A stretch of 64,000 nucleotides of DNA from Synechococcus sp. LTW-R (GCF_014217875.1 NZ_CP059060.1:1922001-1986000); one strand, 5' to 3'. Numbered from the stretch's first letter, positions 1 through 19,420 are shown. Program-made: numbers and translations. Notes: generated from the sequence alone by a model not told the origin.

Positions 1-387
1 GCCCTGAAGTCTGTATTCTCTAAGTACGAGCTTGTTGAGATAGCGACTGACTGGAATACAATTTCCTCCATTGTCGAAGACAGTATCGCTAAAGAGCTCC
101 AGAAGTTTGATTACGTATCTGTCAAAGGCCTCGATCTAACTGGCTTAAAGATTGCCGAAGAGTATCGTTCAGCAATTGAGCAAAAACAAATCGCTGAGCA
201 GCAACTTCTTCGCGCTGAGACTGAAGTGAAGATTGCGGAGCAAGAAGCCATCAAATTCGAGACCCTCAACAAGGGGCTTAACGAAAAGGTGCTTTACAAG
301 CTGTTCCTCGATAAATGGGACGGGCAAACCCAGGTTGTCCCTGGGATTGGCTCAGGTACTCCGCCTGTGATTGTTGGTCGTAGCTGA
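1..387 (+). CDS. SPFH/prohibitin-like protein, C-terminal part
   Basis: This open frame enters from the left edge and stops at TGA 385-387, giving 128 visible residues. It has the end of a beta-rich SPFH core followed by a long charged helix rich in Ala, Glu, Gln and Lys (about residues 55-90, with AEQQLLRAETEVKIAEQEA), typical of prohibitin, stomatin and HflK/C proteins. Such proteins oligomerise at membranes and often modulate proteases. The tail ends in a short Gly/Pro-rich stretch. The N-terminus and its membrane anchor lie outside the window. Base composition is AT-richer than the housekeeping genes further right, as in the next 2 kb. The family call rests on the helix pattern only. Confidence 0.7.
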   Translation, partial: ALKSVFSKYELVEIATDWNTISSIVEDSIAKELQKFDYVSVKGLDLTGLKIAEEYRSAIEQKQIAEQQLLRAETEVKIAEQEAIKFETLNKGLNEKVLYKLFLDKWDGQTQVVPGIGSGTPPVIVGRS

Positions 388-602
388 TCCTGGCTCCGTC
401 CAAATCTCGATGGCGCCTTCCGAATCCTGTCCAAGCTTTTCCGAACCTCATCCATCTGCCGCTGAACCTCCTGAGCCTGTGCGTTCTCCTGCTTAAATCT
501 TGTGATCAGCTGGTCCTTTTCCTCAAGGGTTGGTGCTCTTCGTAGTTGTTGAAGTTGGTGGTTGTTGAATTGGGAGAGTAGTGATGGTGATTGGTTGTTC
601 AT
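294..602 (-). CDS. hypothetical coiled-coil protein, uncertain
   Basis: A 102-residue reading frame from ATG 602; a TTG four codons upstream would give 106. Residues about 25-75 are strongly charged and heptad-like (EEKDQLITRF, QRQMDEVRKSLDRIRK), as expected for a coiled coil. The last 30 codons lie antisense to the end of the SPFH-like gene, so the true C-terminus is doubtful. A second same-strand frame at 523-717, rich in Pro, Thr and Gln, overlaps it, and at most one of the two is likely real. No Shine-Dalgarno sequence is visible. The lack of alternatives in this AT-richer stretch and the sensible protein composition favour a gene, but only weakly. Confidence 0.35.
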   Translation of the reverse strand: MNNQSPSLLSQFNNHQLQQLRRAPTLEEKDQLITRFKQENAQAQEVQRQMDEVRKSLDRIRKAPSRFGRSQDQLRPTITGGVPEPIPGTTWVCPSHLSRNSL

Positions 603-777
603 TTGGCTGATCAATGGTTTGCGGTTGTTGATTGGTTGAATTCAAGTTCAAGTTGAATGGGATCGGTTCGAGTCGGTGAGGTTTGTGGTTCTTCGACCCA
701 TCCAACGTGTATGCCACCGTTCTTGCTGATGAGTGTGAGTCGTTGGTTTGGAGCTGTTGTGTGGTTGTCCATTGTGT

Positions 778-945
778 TCACTTCTTAATGTCGATAATCC
801 ACTCGGCTGCCATTGACCTGGCGTCTTTTGCCTGTCCGAAAATCAGCAGAGTGTCGATGCGTTCTTTGGCTGATCCTGAAATCTGCCCAAGCTTCCAGTA
901 GCGGATGTGTGGAAGCTGGTTTGAAGCTTGGTTCTTTTTGTTCAT
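778..945 (-). CDS. 55-residue protein translationally coupled to upstream gene
   Basis: The ATG at 945-943 overlaps the TGA of the upstream gene (944-942) in an ATGA junction, the classical arrangement for translational coupling. The product is small and basic at its N-terminus (MNKKNQASNQ), followed by a mixed region and an amphipathic end (AKDARSMAAEWIIDIKK). No known family is recognised. The shared strand and coupling suggest it is made in fixed ratio with the putative DNA-binding protein, perhaps as a partner or antagonist; that is inference. Longer starts at 984 or 972 exist but would overlap the neighbour much more. Confidence 0.5.
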   Translation of the reverse strand: MNKKNQASNQLPHIRYWKLGQISGSAKERIDTLLIFGQAKDARSMAAEWIIDIKK

Positions 946-1772
946 GCGTATGTGTGAGATGCGTATTTCCATTGATCTAGGCATTCGCTGATGTAGCTCA
1001 GGGTGTACTCAATCGTGTTGAGAGACTCCATCGCCTCATGGTCATGTTGGATAGATGACCAGTTGATTGTTTGCGCCAGCAGAACAAATTGCTCTATTAG
1101 GTCCGTTGTGCTTGGTTCATCGGTGTCCTCTGCTGCTTGGAGTGCAGATAGCTGTTTGGAGGTTGTCTCCAGACTGCTGTTGTCTTCTTCTACCACTTCT
1201 ATACACTTTGGAAAGACCTGCCTGATCTCTGCCATCCGTTTCACCGACATAGGCAGTTGACCTGCACTGAAGTGAAAGTCTCTGTAGCTGACTTCTTTTT
1301 TGACGGCAGCGAAACCCTCGTCAGACATTCGACTCAACTCATAAATATGAGATGGAGTAAGGGTGTCGAACCACTTCTGCTCTTCTTTATCTGTATGTCT
1401 GCTGGTCAGCCAATCAGCGGTTGCAACGAGCTTGTGCGCGTTGTTGCGCTTGAACCCGACCGCTTCGACCATTTGCTGAACCTGTTTTCGTAACCGCTTA
1501 GACCGCCATCCGTATTGGTTGTCATTGTCGAAGCGGTGATGCTTGTCCAGGTATTTAGCTTCATTGAAGACAGCGATAGCTAGTCGAAGACCGGCGGACG
1601 CTGCATTTCTCTGGAGGATTGCTGTTTCAGCTGCAAACTTAAGGAGTTCTTGTGCTGTCTGTTCTCCAATCTCTGCCAGTATTCGGTTCAGGCTGGGACT
1701 CATTCGTTGGTCTGGCGTCCCATCGCTATCTACTGGCGCTATTAAGTGGCTTAGGTTGATTTGTGTTGGCAT
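942..1772 (-). CDS. putative DNA-binding regulatory or replication protein of a mobile element
   Basis: A 276-residue protein. ATG 1772 is preceded by GGAG at a spacing of 7, so I prefer it to the in-frame GTG at 1787. An early Ala-rich helix (about residues 25-65) is followed by a basic segment (GWRSKRLRKQVQQMV) and a helix-turn-helix-like stretch (VEAVGFKRNNAHKLVATADW), then LTPSHIYELSRMSDEGFAAV, which resembles elements seen in ParB/KorB-like and other plasmid or phage DNA-binding proteins. The C-terminal third is acidic. It lies directly downstream of a repeat ladder and near a tyrosine recombinase, so a Rep-like or control role for a mobile element is plausible. No specific family is certain. 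A 14-bp palindrome covers its leader. Confidence 0.55.
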   Translation of the reverse strand: MPTQINLSHLIAPVDSDGTPDQRMSPSLNRILAEIGEQTAQELLKFAAETAILQRNAASAGLRLAIAVFNEAKYLDKHHRFDNDNQYGWRSKRLRKQVQQMVEAVGFKRNNAHKLVATADWLTSRHTDKEEQKWFDTLTPSHIYELSRMSDEGFAAVKKEVSYRDFHFSAGQLPMSVKRMAEIRQVFPKCIEVVEEDNSSLETTSKQLSALQAAEDTDEPSTTDLIEQFVLLAQTINWSSIQHDHEAMESLNTIEYTLSYISECLDQWKYASHTYA

Positions 1773-1780
1773 ACGAAAAC

Positions 1781-1794
1781 TCCACACGTGTGGA
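1781..1794. promoter_or_regulatory. 14-bp perfect palindrome over the leader of the 942-1772 gene
   Basis: TCCACACGTGTGGA is fully self-complementary and ends 9 bases upstream of ATG 1772. It contains the GGAG that serves as ribosome binding site. A dimeric repressor bound here, possibly the downstream protein itself, would block transcription or translation. The palindrome is seen in the sequence; the operator role is inference. Confidence 0.45.
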
Positions 1795-1929
1795 TTATTT
1801 GTTGATTGTGATCACCACCTGCTGGTTTCTTGTCCTGGTAAATGGTGTGTTTGGTATTCATTTGCAAGTACCCTTCCAGATATTGCGGGTGGTTTTAACG
1901 TCTTGAGCCTGATGCAGCAGTTTGTCCTG

Positions 1930-2265
1930 TATAAGTCAGTGGTTGCCCTCTGTAAGGGTGTGATGTCCTGCTTATAAGGGACGGATCGCCTTCGTCCCTG
2001 TTTTAATTGGCGACCGGCTTCGTTTCTGTTTAAGGCAGGGACTTTTCCTCCTGTCTTAGGGTGGGACTGTGGTCTCTCCTGTATTCCTCAGGGACCGGTT
2101 TGCTCTTGTCTATAAGGGACGCACCTGTTTTTCTTCTCTTTAAGTGACGGACCGCCTCCCGGTATACATAGCTGATGTATCTGCTGTATTAGGCAGGGAC
2201 CGCTTGACTCCGGTGTTAGGCCGACACCTCTCGCCGTATAAGGAGCCGCTTGACCCTTATAAGTG
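1930..2265. repeat. ladder of about 14 diverged 21-29 bp direct repeats (iteron-like)
   Basis: The gap 1795-2409 has no convincing gene and is filled by a degenerate direct repeat with approximate core TATAAG followed by GGGAC or GGAC and CGC. Cores start near 1930, 1951, 1973, 2002, 2029, 2055, 2082, 2111, 2139, 2163, 2187, 2215, 2237 and 2258, i.e. steps of 21-29 bp. The best copies are TATAAGGGACGG (1973), TATAAGGGACGC (2111), TTTAAGTGACGGACCGC (2139) and TATTAGGCAGGGACCGC (2187). A looser relative (TTTTAAGTGGTTGC) lies at 2327. A CCTCT/AGAGG hairpin sits at about 2371-2389. Position upstream of the putative DNA-binding gene and downstream of a recombinase suggests an iteron origin or multi-site operator. 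Confidence 0.5.
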
Positions 2266-2409
2266 TGCTATTGCTCCTTGTACACCCGACACCGCTAGAA
2301 GCTGCCTAGAAGGCTCTCCAAGGTATTTTAAGTGGTTGCTCGCTCTTGCTTCATCATCAAGTGGAAGCGCCCTCTGGGGGCATAGAGGAGGCTCTGGCTG
2401 GCTTTGATC

Positions 2410-3819
2410 TCACCAGGCATACTTGTTGAATAGATCTTTCTTCTCCCCAGGCCTTTCCCGCTTCCCGAGAGTGGGCATGGTGAGCTCTCGCCCTTTCTTC
2501 CGCAGGTTCAGTCGTGCGTACGTCTTTTGGGTTTCCATGACGGAATGACCGGCCATCTCATCTACTTCATATACAGGCGTCCCCTTCAGTAGGTGATCTT
2601 CGATGAAGGTTGAGCGCATCGAGTAAATGGTGTACGGGTGTGGTGAGTAGCGGTGGCCAGTTAGTTTGGATTCGAGAGCGTCTAATACCTCCTTCCATGA
2701 GCGTTGGAAGTTGGAGTATCCGTAGCCTTTTAGTTCATTGTTTGGGTTTGAGAAAATGACGGTCTCCCTGTTTGGTGCCACCTTCAGTTCTTTTGAGGCG
2801 ATGTAATCCTCTTGGAACTGGTTCCACCTAATTAGCTCACGTGCCTGGTTCGCCGGAATCTCTCGAGCTTGTTTGGTCTTGCTCCGAATGGTGTAGATGT
2901 ACGACACCAGCCACTCTTCGCGTTTTCCGCTGCTGGTGGTTCTGCCTTCATCAACAATCTCAACCTGCTTCCATCGCATCTTCAAAATCTCTTCAGGCGA
3001 CATGCCTGTGTTCTTCATGAACAAGATGAAGTGCCAGAACAGAGTCCGCCAGTAGTAAATGCGGTGGTTCTGTAGGCGTTTCGCGCTGTCCCTGTATGGA
3101 CCCCGCACATAGTCAACGATTGTTTTCCAGTCATCGGCGTTGATGGCCGGGTTTTTCATTCGATCCGTTTGTTTGACCCGACTTCGTGAAAGGAAATCTT
3201 TGTCCAACAGCAGATCCGCATCAAGCAATCTGTTTTTGACTAAGTAGTTCTTGCAGAAATCCTTGATGTGACCGACCTCGACATTCCTGCTTAGCGGCGT
3301 TGCTGTGCTCCTGAAGAGCTCGTAGTCCCTAAACGTTCCAGCATGGATCTGGTTGGTGTACAGGACGCCCTGGGACGCCAGGTACGGCAGCAGGTGTTGC
3401 GTGAGTGTGATCCCCTTTTGCTGCATTGTTTTGGCCGTGATCAGTCCTGCAGTGCTTCTGCGCTTTTCCTGCTCTAGGAAGCTCCGTACGGCGTTCTCGA
3501 TGAGTTGCCGCCGTGGTTGGCGCGTCACCGTCTGCTGCTCGTGGCTGAGCTGTCTCTTGGTGCTTCTGGAGCCTCCGACAAGCTCACTGGCGAGGTCAGG
3601 GGTTTCCTGCTCCTCAGCCTGGATTGCGAACGCCACCTCTATCGCCGCCTGGACGGCATCTTCCATTGAGGTGACGTTTGGGATCTTCCGCTGGCGGTAA
3701 GACCTGCTGCCCTTGACCAGCTCCCGATAAAAGAACGACCCAGTAGAGGTTCCTGACCCGTAGAGCACTACAAACTCTCTGCCGTTAAGCACCTCACGCT
3801 TATCAACGATCCTGGGCAT
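2410..3819 (-). CDS. int: tyrosine recombinase / phage-type integrase, atypical catalytic set
   Basis: A 469-residue site-specific recombinase. The N-terminal 130 residues look like an arm-binding region, followed by a SAM-like core-binding domain (about 130-240) and the catalytic domain (about 250-450). Visible catalytic positions are R402 in YSMRSTF, H425 in AGHS and nucleophile Y434 in TYARL, with a Lys in RSKTKQ. The usual first arginine (TGLR or TGMR) is Ser274 in NTGMSPEE, and the usual His of HxxR is Tyr399. ATG 3819 opens the frame; genomic flanks lie to the right. It probably mobilises the AT-richer DNA to its left. Whether the altered active site is active cannot be told from sequence. 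Confidence 0.9.
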   Translation of the reverse strand: MPRIVDKREVLNGREFVVLYGSGTSTGSFFYRELVKGSRSYRQRKIPNVTSMEDAVQAAIEVAFAIQAEEQETPDLASELVGGSRSTKRQLSHEQQTVTRQPRRQLIENAVRSFLEQEKRRSTAGLITAKTMQQKGITLTQHLLPYLASQGVLYTNQIHAGTFRDYELFRSTATPLSRNVEVGHIKDFCKNYLVKNRLLDADLLLDKDFLSRSRVKQTDRMKNPAINADDWKTIVDYVRGPYRDSAKRLQNHRIYYWRTLFWHFILFMKNTGMSPEEILKMRWKQVEIVDEGRTTSSGKREEWLVSYIYTIRSKTKQAREIPANQARELIRWNQFQEDYIASKELKVAPNRETVIFSNPNNELKGYGYSNFQRSWKEVLDALESKLTGHRYSPHPYTIYSMRSTFIEDHLLKGTPVYEVDEMAGHSVMETQKTYARLNLRKKGRELTMPTLGKRERPGEKKDLFNKYAW

Positions 3820-3972
3820 GCTTTTGTTGGTATGACGTGGGTATCGAGGGGTGTGACCCGCTCAGATCCCTGGCATAAGCCCAACGCCTGCATTTCCAGG
3901 TGAAGTAGGCCATGCCCCGGCAATGCGCTGATCTGACCGTAAGACCGGCGGAACAAATCCCGTTTGGCCAAG

Positions 3973-4832: not shown

Positions 4833-5879
4833 TAATCCCAGGGCGGCCAGCCCCGCGCTGATCAGCCAGAAGCCGACGACCACTTGTTGTTCTGAGGCGC
4901 CACCCAGTTCGAAGTGGTGATGCAGCGGAGCCATGCGGAAGACCCGCCGGCCGACACCATCGGGGCCCTTGGTGGCCTTGAACACCCAGACCTGGACGAT
5001 CACCGAGAGGGATTCCGCCAGGAAGATCCCGCCCATCAAGAGCAGGGCCCAGAGGCTGTTGCTCAGCAGGGCCACCGCGGCCAGGGCCGCCCCCATGGCC
5101 AGGGAACCGGTGTCGCCCATGAACACCCGGGCTGGGTGCCGGTTGAAGAGCAAGAAACCCAGCCAGCAGCCAGCCATGGCCGCGCAGAAGCCGGCGAGGG
5201 CGGGGTCCCCCTCGTTGCCACGGAGCATCAGCTGCACCCCCATGCCGCTGAAGACGATCGCTCCGCAGCCGGCCGCCAGACCATCGAGGCCGTCGGTGAG
5301 GTTGGTGGCGTTGCTTTCCGCCAGGAAGACAAAGAGCCCCAGGGGCCAGATCAGCAGGCCCAGGGGAAGGATCCAGCCCAGGGGCAGGGCGATCTGGGCG
5401 GTGATCAGCTCATGCCAGGCGGCCCAAGCCAGGAATCCAGCGGCGCTGAGACCCTGCAGCAGCAGCTTGCCGCTGGGCGAGAGCCCCGTGTTGTGGCGTT
5501 TGGTCAGGCTGCGCCAGTCATCGAATCCGCCGATGGCCATGTAGGCCAGGGTGATCGCCGCGACCCCGGGCAAGCGCAGGTCGCTCGGGGCAATCAGCCC
5601 CCCCACCAGCACGCCGACGGGAACGACCAGCAGTCCTCCCATCGTGGGTGTCCCCGCTTTGCTCAGGTGGCTTTGGGGCCCCTCTTGGCGGATGACCTGT
5701 CCGAGTTTGAGGTTGCGCAGTCGGGGCACCCCCCAGGTGCAGACCACGGCGCTGATGGTTGCCGCCACGAGCAGCGGAACGCTGAGCTGCGGTGTTCGCG
5801 TGAACCAGTCACAGCCTTCGCAGACCCCCAACAGCAATAAACCCAGCAACAGCGCCAGGCGGCGGCTGTTGCTGGGCAT
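4818..5879 (-). CDS. mraY: phospho-N-acetylmuramoyl-pentapeptide transferase MraY
   Basis: This enzyme transfers phospho-MurNAc-pentapeptide from UDP to undecaprenyl phosphate, giving lipid I, the first membrane step of peptidoglycan synthesis. The 353 residues are polytopic, with about ten hydrophobic segments. Family signatures are all present: [11 protein letters not shown], the [15 protein letters not shown] aspartate motif, [11 protein letters not shown] and the C-terminal APLHHHFEL histidine loop. ATG 5879 is used here; a GTG at 5909 would add ten residues. It lies downstream of the DUF3134 gene on the same strand, 44 bp apart, and probably shares its transcript. Confidence 0.95.
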
Positions 5880-8518: not shown

Positions 8519-8606
8519 GGCTTACGCGATCCGACGTGGACGCCGAAAGGGACGGTGGCTGATGGGGTGGACCGAAGCCCGGTTCATCAGCGGCGGATCG
8601 TCCACC

Positions 8607-16999: not shown

Positions 17000-18522
17000 G
17001 CCAAGGCTTCGTCGTGGTGCTTGCGCAGGGTGGCCTTGGGCAGTGGACCCTTGAGGTGCTCCCAGGGCAGAACCCGATCAGCCTCCCAGGCGCTGTGGAT
17101 CACGTCCTCCCAGGGGGGGAGGGGTGTCTCGGCTTCGCGATAGGCCTGCTTCCAGCCGCCGAGTTTTTCGTGGCGGCCGCGCACCGCGGCGATCACGTGG
17201 GCCAGGCGCCGGTCGCTGCGGGAGAGGAGCGCCTGGATCACGCTCCAGCCGTAGCTCTCCGGGCGCAGGTCGATGCCCTTGGGCTTGAGCCGCTTGGCCA
17301 GCAGCTTGAGTCGTTTCTCGGCTTCCGGGCGGACGCCCTGCCACTGGAAGGGGGTGTGGGCCTTGGGCACAAAGGTGCTGACCCCGAGAGACAGCCGCAG
17401 GCCTGGGCTGGCTTTTTTGAGCTGGAGCAAGAGGTCGGCGGTGGCCTCGATGTCGTCTTCGCCCTCCGAGGGCAGGCCGGCCATGCCGTAGAGCTTCAGG
17501 CCGCTGAGGCCACCCTCTTTGGCGTAGCGGGCGGCGGCATAGATCTCCTCGGTGGCCAGCTTTTTGTTGACCACCTCGCGCATGCGCTCGCTGCCGCTTT
17601 CGATGGCGATCGTCAGGGACTTGCTGCCGCGTTTGGCCAGGATGCGCCCGAGCTCGGGGGTGACGGTGGCGGCCCGCACGGAGCTGACGCTGACGCGGGT
17701 GTCCTCAAAGCGGTCCTGATCGAGCCACTGCAGCAGGTCGCCGAATTGCGGGTGCTGGGTCACCGATGCTCCCAGCAAGCCGAGGCGTTGAGTGGCCCCC
17801 AGGCCCTTCTCCACGGCCGGGATCAGCCCGTCATCGAGGCTCGGGGTTCGGAAGGGCAGGGTGAGGTAGCTGGCCAGGCAGAAGCGGCAGAGCTCCGGGC
17901 AGCTGCGCACGACCTCGACCATGTGAATGGAGGGCCAGGCCGCCTCAGGGGTGATCACCGTGGAGTGGCTCAGGGTGTTGCCGCGCCAGGTCTGTTTCTC
18001 GATGGTTTCGGGGATGCCGGCCTCGATCGGTTCGATCGCCAGCAGGTCGCCGCCCTCGCTGTAGCGGGGGGCGTAGAGCGAGGGGACATAGACACCGGGC
18101 ACCGCCGCCAGGCGCCGCAGGCGTTCGTGGCGCGGGGCGGTTTTGCACGCCTGCAGGGCATCGATGAACGCCGGCAGCAGCAGTTCGCCATCGCCGAGCA
18201 GCACTGCATCAAAGAAGGGGGCCAGGGGCTCGGGGTTGGCGGTCAGCACCGGTCCCCCGCCAAAGACGATCGGATCGTTGTCGCCGCGCTCGCTCGCCCA
18301 GATCGGGATGCGCTGTTGCTCCAGCAGATCGAGCAGCACTGGCCCGTCGAGTTCCCAACTCAGGGACAGGCCAAAGAGGTCGCAGTGGCGGTGCTGCGGA
18401 TCACCCTGGTCGGTGAACAGCCGCCGCACATCCACGTCGGCGCGCTGGGCCAAGGTCGCCCAGACCACCTGATAGCCGAGGCTCGTGATCCCCACGGTGT
18501 AGGTGCTGGGGAAGGCCAACAC
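16996..18522 (-). CDS. B12-binding-like radical SAM protein
   Basis: A 508-residue protein. The N-terminal part resembles a cobalamin-binding domain (SLGYQVVWATLAQRADVDVR, FGGGPVLTANPEPL). A radical SAM core has the cluster motif CPELCRFC (CxxxCxxC, about residue 210) and AIESGSERMREVVNK; YGMAGLPSEGEDDI follows. This set is typical of uncharacterised cyanobacterial and other bacterial radical SAM proteins. The reading frame stays open upstream of GTG 18522 and shows family-like sequence (ETLLFEPAAAQQGALRAV) but no ATG, so the true start is probably a rare codon about 15-25 residues upstream. Substrate unknown. Confidence 0.85.
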   Translation of the reverse strand: MLAFPSTYTVGITSLGYQVVWATLAQRADVDVRRLFTDQGDPQHRHCDLFGLSLSWELDGPVLLDLLEQQRIPIWASERGDNDPIVFGGGPVLTANPEPLAPFFDAVLLGDGELLLPAFIDALQACKTAPRHERLRRLAAVPGVYVPSLYAPRYSEGGDLLAIEPIEAGIPETIEKQTWRGNTLSHSTVITPEAAWPSIHMVEVVRSCPELCRFCLASYLTLPFRTPSLDDGLIPAVEKGLGATQRLGLLGASVTQHPQFGDLLQWLDQDRFEDTRVSVSSVRAATVTPELGRILAKRGSKSLTIAIESGSERMREVVNKKLATEEIYAAARYAKEGGLSGLKLYGMAGLPSEGEDDIEATADLLLQLKKASPGLRLSLGVSTFVPKAHTPFQWQGVRPEAEKRLKLLAKRLKPKGIDLRPESYGWSVIQALLSRSDRRLAHVIAAVRGRHEKLGGWKQAYREAETPLPPWEDVIHSAWEADRVLPWEHLKGPLPKATLRKHHDEALA

Positions 18523-18631
18523 CGCCCGAAGGGCACCCTGCTGCGCAGCAGCTGGCTCAAACAGCAGGGTTTCTTGGTTCAGGTCAGAGGAGGATCGCCA
18601 GAAAAACTTTAATAGTTGCCGTTGTTGGGTC

Positions 18632-19420
18632 TTATTTGATGAGACTCAGGACGGGCTGGAATTCTCCGGGAAGCATTATTTGAGGTTCCCCGGTCGCATT
18701 ATTCGGAACGATTGTCATGCCCGTGTTGGAGACCTTGAACGATACGAGGAGTCCTAGGCAGGCATCTTCAATGACAAATGGGCTGCTTGGAGTGAAGACT
18801 CCAACCATTGCTGCTGGACTTGTGCAGTCACTGGCTTTGGAGTAATCGCTGGTTGTCAGATAGGCAATCAGTGATCCGCTGGATACTGACGTGTTGGTCG
18901 ATGTTGTGCATGTGGTTCCTCCAAAGCTATTGAGAGTTACCAGGGATTCTGCTGCTGTCGATCCGGAAGTGGTGTTCTGAGAAGGTGTGTATGTGCTGGT
19001 GGCGGTTGAGTTGGTCGAGAAGTCGGTAGCTGCGCCACCCGAGCTGCCATTGAATGTTGCCGTGATGCCTAGGACGTTTGACATTTTTGCGTAGGCATAT
19101 GGGTAGGATCCATTCGGTGGTCGTGATGAAGACCCGCCGGTTAAGGCTTGATTGTTGCCGCCCGCGACGTCTACAGTTTGACTTCCCGAGAAAGTGGCGA
19201 AGCAGACCTTTTCGTCAAAGCTTTCTCCTGCAAATGGGTCTGAGCTGCAGATTCCCATTTCTGTAATCGTGACGTTGTAACCACTAGGAGTGGCGTAACA
19301 GGATGCCGTAAGCACTGCCCCTGATGCGCACTGTGCTTGTTGTGCCTTGCTTGGTGCGGCGGCGACGAGGACGCCAGTGCTGAAAACTGTGAAAAGAGTG
19401 GCTGAAAAAAGGCGATTCAT
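18632..19420 (-). CDS. secreted Ser/Thr-rich protein paired with inverse-autotransporter barrel
   Basis: A 262-residue exported protein. A cleavable signal peptide is clear (MNRLFSATLFTVFSTGVLVA, cleavage near APSKAQQ). The mature part is rich in Ser, Thr, Gly and Asn, has about seven Cys spread over the first and last thirds, and contains NSTATSTYTPSQNTTSGST in the middle. No known domain is recognised. It begins 37 bp after the stop of the outer-membrane barrel gene on the same strand, which makes it a candidate separately encoded surface partner. Base composition is AT-richer than its neighbours, hinting at acquisition. Confidence 0.75.
   Translation of the reverse strand: MNRLFSATLFTVFSTGVLVAAAPSKAQQAQCASGAVLTASCYATPSGYNVTITEMGICSSDPFAGESFDEKVCFATFSGSQTVDVAGGNNQALTGGSSSRPPNGSYPYAYAKMSNVLGITATFNGSSGGAATDFSTNSTATSTYTPSQNTTSGSTAAESLVTLNSFGGTTCTTSTNTSVSSGSLIAYLTTSDYSKASDCTSPAAMVGVFTPSSPFVIEDACLGLLVSFKVSNTGMTIVPNNATGEPQIMLPGEFQPVLSLIK

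Follow-up and report, generated by a model that had tools for sequence, protein, structure and literature searches.

The 64,000-nucleotide stretch of the Synechococcus sp. LTW-R chromosome analysed here (the window; G000:C1:1922001-1986000, from a complete 2.4-Mb genome of the family Cyanobiaceae) opens inside an AT-richer block. On its minus strand this block carries, in order, a tyrosine recombinase, a ladder of diverged direct repeats, a 276-residue open reading frame (ORF1) and a coupled 55-residue frame (ORF2), all of which the preliminary description had named and all of which are present. The block turned out to be wider than described there. It is a 6.4-kb element running from window position -2524 to 3913, with its left end at genome position 1919476, 2.5 kb before the window start, and a GC content of 0.47-0.52 against about 0.65 alongside (table 1). 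A perfect 20-bp direct repeat, TTCCAGGTGAAGTAGGCCAT, marks both ends as attachment (att) sites (attL, -2524 to -2505; attR, 3894-3913), and the att core coincides with the opening 20 bp, at the 5' end, of a host protein gene (ATGGCCTACTTCACCTGGAA, MAYFTWK...). In the relative G018 the flanks join at exactly this 20-mer, with 95% identity on both sides (locus L291, G018:C36, 1772-1791). Direct att repeats and an empty site in a relative, the tests for an integrative element of the tyrosine-recombinase type, were both found, and because the empty site is exact in a relative of 95% identity, site-specific integration of the 6.4-kb element is shown. Presence in the genus is patchy: the ORF1 family occurs in the genome studied (G000) and in two of 24 same-genus genomes, where it lies elsewhere. 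Comparison of related genomes thus bears out the earlier proposal of an integrated mobile element. An association with a tRNA gene, proposed with it, fell away, as no tRNA gene lies within the window or its flanks and integration took place at the beginning of a protein-coding gene.

Table 1. Features of the integrative element, in window coordinates.
Feature	Position	Strand	Basis or remark
Window share of 6.4-kb integrative element	1..3913	.	att repeats, empty site, GC drop
3' part of Band7/SPFH protein, cargo	1..387	+	263-aa frame from window -404; convergent to operon
ORF4, 106 aa	294..614	-	common to element L012 (85% identity)
ORF3, 56 aa	611..781	-	common to elements L012 (79% identity) and L014 (56% identity)
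ORF2, 55 aa	778..945	-	start overlaps ORF1 stop (ATGA)
ORF1, 276 aa, helix-turn-helix (HTH)/ParB-like candidate DNA-binding protein, ATG start	942..1772	-	family search; AlphaFold2 pLDDT 83; weak ParB/Noc matches
Perfect palindrome TCCACACGTGTGGA, candidate operator, parS/NBS-like form	1781..1794	.	precedes ORF1 start
Conserved leader hairpin CACCATTTACCAGGACAAGAAACCAGCAGGTGGTG	1813..1847	-	comparison with relatives' leaders
Short remnant at the place of the relatives' ~300-nt structured RNA (deleted here)	1848..1915	-	comparison with L010, L013 and L014 leaders
Array of about 12-14 diverged units resembling T7-like cyanophage RNA polymerase promoters	1921..2301	-	matrices and motif identity
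Tyrosine recombinase/integrase, 469 aa	2410..3819	-	PF00589 E 9.2e-9; phrog_1 integrase E 7e-16; 75 bp from attR
attR TTCCAGGTGAAGTAGGCCAT	3894..3913	.	perfect copy of attL at -2524..-2505

The ladder had been described as about 14 diverged direct repeats at 21-29 bp steps, and it is real. A motif matrix detected 12 units (about 1930-2290) at 21-29-nt steps, against 1.2 in shuffled sequences (maximum 5) and two on the opposite strand; two gaps of 50 nt in the ladder correspond to missed units. Tandem Repeats Finder did not report it because the units are too diverged. All units point into the operon. We then scanned all 64 kb, on both strands, with a phage-only matrix built from nine phage promoters and never trained on the window. 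The top three matches and eight of the 14 best fell inside the array, which makes up 0.3% of the search space, and the five best matches total 71.1, compared with a shuffle maximum of 17.9. The best matches start at 1947, 1968, 2071, 2180, 2156, 2275, 2204 and 2254 and read leftwards to ORF1. The phage-only matrix therefore argues strongly that the ladder belongs to the family of promoters used by the single-subunit RNA polymerases (RNAPs) of T7-like cyanophages. Of the two layouts first considered for the repeats, the multi-site control region was the correct one.

Array units share TATACAGGGRGA after a variable box (for example CGATCCGACACTTATACAGGGGGA), and 136 distinct units gave the consensus AGCGATCACTCACGTATACAGGGAGA as a 32-nt matrix. 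On phage S-CBP1 this matrix gave a score of 30.2 at a site within the RNAP gene and of 17.0 at one immediately after the terminase; shuffled sequence reached at most 8.9. Two promoters of phage Syn5, ATTGGGCACCCGTAA, have been proven experimentally (PMC3950665). They lie at positions 4929 and 44797, in the RNAP gene and behind the terminase, matching the places of the motif in the other phages. Among 13 cyanophage RNAP genes, eight have a match scoring above 20 at gene positions nt 796-811 (S-RIP1, at 33.2, DSL-LC07, S-CBP1, MedDCM-C24, WH11-B, S-CBP4, S-SRP01 and S-CBP3). Syn5, P60, S-CBP42 and SS120-1 have a core of variant sequence, GTAAGCAGGG or close to it, at about the same place; no clear promoter site was seen in the S-CBP2 RNAP gene. 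Five phages were scanned whole (S-RIP1, S-CBP4, DSL-LC07, S-CBP1 and S-SRP01). The copy within the RNAP gene was the top match in all five; the post-terminase copy ranked second in S-RIP1, S-CBP4 and S-CBP1 and fourth in DSL-LC07, and was seen by eye, outside the top matches, in S-SRP01. Within each scanned phage the promoter box is identical in both copies, so that S-RIP1, DSL-LC07, S-CBP4 and S-CBP1 carry copies with a shared box at the proven promoter places of Syn5. Searching 50,697 phage records by blastn with the S-CBP1 promoter returned Synechococcus phages only, always in the RNAP gene. An RNAP tree separates the phages into two clades according to core, TATACAGGG in one and GTAAGCAGGG or GTAAGCAAGG in the other. 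The array resembles Syn5-type promoters of the Autographiviridae in its TATACAGGGRGA core and upstream box, a motif found at the same in-gene and post-terminase places. It differs in copy number: two strong sites in each phage genome examined, against 2-15 tandem copies in the islands, on a bacterial chromosome.

Such arrays are not confined to the window. A pattern of two tandem units occurs at 36 places in 20 of 400 Cyanobiaceae genomes, and a reversed-pattern control gave none. Many of them follow an integrase encoded on the same strand, and the cargo beyond them varies. Most array-bearing genomes tested are without a T7-like RNAP gene (PF00940), including the complete single-contig genomes G203, G156, G131 and G023. 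Arrays thus persist without need of a resident polymerase, and the simplest source of the reading enzyme would be an incoming phage.

Some sister elements do encode a polymerase. In one design an integrase is followed by an 812-845-aa gene and then ORF1 and ORF2, the long gene being a T7-like single-subunit RNAP (PF00940 E 1e-35 to 1e-41); these elements have a single promoter ahead of a large structured RNA and no array. In the other design (the window, L010, L013, L014, L052, L055-L057 and L063) an array precedes the ORF1 leader and no polymerase is linked. L010 is a second copy of this latter design in the window's genome, 61% identical and with one stop codon in ORF1, and L011 is a remnant copy in the same genome. 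The window's genome also holds, in another AT-rich island, L067, which has a tyrosine recombinase of its own (17304-18782), an 814-847-aa T7-like RNAP (L067:9610-12153, minus strand; genome C1 about 2046610-2049153). A phage-type promoter, CTTAATCCCTTCCCTATACACAGAGA (score 18.6), precedes its reading frame by 112 bp, at L067 position 12265. The T7 catalytic motifs are retained in this enzyme; its identity to the cyanophage enzymes is only about 28%.

These polymerases raise the alternative that arrays are read by the T7-like RNAPs of other integrative elements, on which array-only islands would depend. It fits the intact appearance of the sister elements' enzymes, with the catalytic motifs of the own-genome enzyme and the motif match ahead of it. 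We nevertheless consider it unlikely, in view of the array-bearing genomes, several of them complete, that have no single-subunit RNAP gene. Moreover, the promoter-like leaders of RNAP-bearing elements (CTAATAGTAGAGAGAAG) are without TATACAGGG, and ten element RNAPs form a separate clade apart from the phage enzymes (support 97/95; the count disregards the out-of-frame row L058).

The preliminary description had likened the locus to the iteron-Rep layout of plasmids, with the 276-residue protein as initiator of replication. Direct repeats do precede a candidate DNA-binding gene, and a fold search with ORF1 gave some return: in its AlphaFold2 model (mean predicted local distance difference test, pLDDT, 83) residues about 54-189 weakly match the ParB/Noc HTH domain. 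The top PDB matches are ParB and insignificant (E 0.37-0.5; Z 5.2 over 97 residues), and neither that search nor those against Pfam, PHROG and plasmid proteins gave a replication-initiator match or, for the sequence searches, any match at all. ORF1 homologues occur without arrays (L046, L047, L050, L051, L053, L058, L059 and L064), arrays occur without ORF1 (L223-L237), and the units match phage promoters; sister elements with an ORF1-type protein have an RNAP and no array. We rejected iterons for ORF1, which appear very improbable, because ORF1 and arrays occur independently of each other.

ORF1 probably binds DNA, its likely target being the palindrome in its own leader. The position of this palindrome before ORF1 is conserved in most relatives while its sequence differs, as would be expected if a DNA-binding protein coevolves with its operator. 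A palindromic site beside the gene and the weak HTH-domain match recall ParB/Noc and their parS/NBS sites, but no ParB CTPase domain was found in ORF1. Within the search made, the ORF1 family is restricted to Cyanobiaceae elements, with 26 of 400 genomes positive. Its partner ORF2 is retained even where an unrelated protein replaces ORF1.

Between the promoter or array and ORF1, most relatives have a conserved RNA of about 300 nt (leaders of L046, L047, L050-L054, L058-L062, L064, L065, L010, L013 and L014). Strong covariation among 14 sequences supports its structure: 24 of 28 pairs changed on both sides and 96% of cells pair, none of 500 shuffles matched the real value, and a one-column shift of the partner collapsed the signal. 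The RNA has an E-loop-like motif (GAAUGCC...GGAGUA) and is present in 29 of 400 Cyanobiaceae genomes; a known RNA family was ruled out, as Rfam gave no match. The structured RNA model (R1) had no match in the window. Downstream of it, the leader hairpin of the window recurs, with paired changes, ahead of ORF1 in L010, L013, L014, L046, L047, L050-L057, L060, L063 and L064. Comparison of the leaders indicates that the structured RNA is deleted from the window copy, with hairpin and palindrome retained. Together with its diverged promoter units, this makes the window copy look partly decayed. The structured RNA also accompanies unrelated proteins of 268-282 aa that replace ORF1 behind RNAP and RNA in L253, L254 (511-1317, minus strand) and L256 (479-1327, minus strand), all with ORF2 kept. 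In L257 (104-868) it adjoins a serine (resolvase-type) recombinase, not a tyrosine recombinase.

We propose, with a probability of about 0.6, that the element is a phage-responsive integrative island, either a satellite or a defence island, whose operon would be driven by the RNAP of an invading phage. The promoter family is established by sequence comparison, and from it we infer promoter activity and a response to infection. A tyrosine recombinase inserted the island into the start of the host protein gene, the step shown above. The tandem array between integrase and the ORF1-ORF4 operon would then serve as promoters for the single-subunit RNAP of T7-like cyanophages, which the host multi-subunit polymerase would not read. 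On infection by a cyanophage of the S-RIP1 or S-CBP1 type, the phage RNAP would switch on the island operon and simultaneously be drawn away from the phage's own two promoters, while ORF1 would probably bind the palindrome in its leader. The outcome could be satellite-like, with excision and copying during infection, or could be protection of the host; the sequence is compatible with either. Sister elements would bring their polymerase along, with its single promoter before the structured RNA.

Several observations weigh against this proposal. No defence genes were recognised by PADLOC and no packaging genes in our searches. Neither ORF1 nor the element RNAP was found in the viral contigs of IMG/VR, nor were copies of the element. 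Arrays of the second phage promoter type (GTAAGCAGGG) were found in none of the 400 genomes. Array units and individual phages have no more boxes in common than the motif leads one to expect (column-wise null, P 0.06-0.7), and no particular phage can therefore be named. Compared with other islands, the window has more diverged units, none with the exact TATACAGGG core, so that this copy may be weak or decaying. Finally, trans-activation of the window array by the element-type RNAP from the other island of the same genome is possible.

Further candidates were discarded. Arrays as a catalogue of the exact promoters of particular sequenced phages were rejected, the sharing being not above the column-wise null. 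The array-pattern scan of IMG/VR returned mostly coding repeats of period 9, and the sole match of a stricter scan (L135) fell by chance within a phage tail gene.

The array might instead act as a T7-type replication origin, at which phage RNAP transcripts serve as primers for the phage replisome to copy the island, making it a replicating satellite. T7 itself has a primary origin made up of two T7 RNAP promoters and an AT-rich stretch after them, and a replication-initiator-like protein lies behind the array in two islands: a conserved 135-aa protein directly behind it in L224 (8620-9027) and L225 (8607-9014) weakly matches phrog_391 (replication initiation O-like, E 0.0018). Neither an AT-rich origin nor a packaging signal was identified, and no copies were found in viral contigs; we regard an origin as a minority possibility, slightly ahead of a reader encoded by other elements. 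Less probable again is a sponge that titrates phage RNAP off the phage's two promoters and slows infection, with operon transcription secondary. The array copies do outnumber the only two strong sites in each examined phage genome (Syn5: PMC3950665), but arrays are always oriented from integrase to gene, an orientation that a pure sponge does not need.

If the phage RNAP is the trigger, the island differs in its wiring from known phage satellites (phage-inducible chromosomal islands, P4-like satellites and PICMI). It shares with them a small size, an integrase with a specific att site, a criterion of phage satellites that was found here, and an expected response to a helper phage. Their known markers (AlpA, primase, capsid remodelling) were not recognised in the island in these searches, and its proposed trigger is a phage RNAP acting on borrowed phage promoters. 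The tycheposons of marine picocyanobacteria resemble it in having a tyrosine recombinase and a cargo island, in the same bacterial family. A tRNA gene at the border is a criterion for tycheposons (PMC10872708), by which the element, whose att site opens a protein gene, is not one of them. It differs from them further in its promoter array and its ORF1/ORF2 module. In the open-access literature searched, we found no description of phage-RNAP promoter arrays in islands.

More broadly, we hold at even odds that a class of picocyanobacterial islands detects lytic T7-like viruses by means of tandem arrays of their RNAP promoters, array islands usually being without a polymerase and sister islands having their own T7-like polymerase with an undescribed structured RNA of about 300 nt. 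Such islands, if this is true, would form a novel type of mobile element triggered by infection, with varied cargo exchanged behind the array. How marine and estuarine picocyanobacteria detect or exploit the abundant T7-like viruses is poorly known, and a chromosomal array of viral RNAP promoters would be a concrete and testable wiring from virus to island. The array motif also predicts promoter sequences for many cyanophage RNAPs, which could be of use in orthogonal transcription. Element-encoded T7-like RNAPs in a clade of their own and a large structured RNA without an Rfam match came to light alongside.

Other islands and the insertion site provided further observations. A second island in the window's genome (L012, 7298-10825) has a related integrase (30-32%) and homologues of ORF3 and ORF4 (79-85% identity), and one phage-type promoter, at 8524. 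The array islands L231 (1712-4537), L232 (4973-8050) and L236 (2737-7308) encode very large proteins of surface type (RTX/cadherin/RCC1 DUF4214), in L236 directly behind the array. G020 and G023 (loci L289 and L290) carry different insertions at the chromosomal place of the window element, an insertion hotspot that sits between the MAYFTWK gene and mraY.

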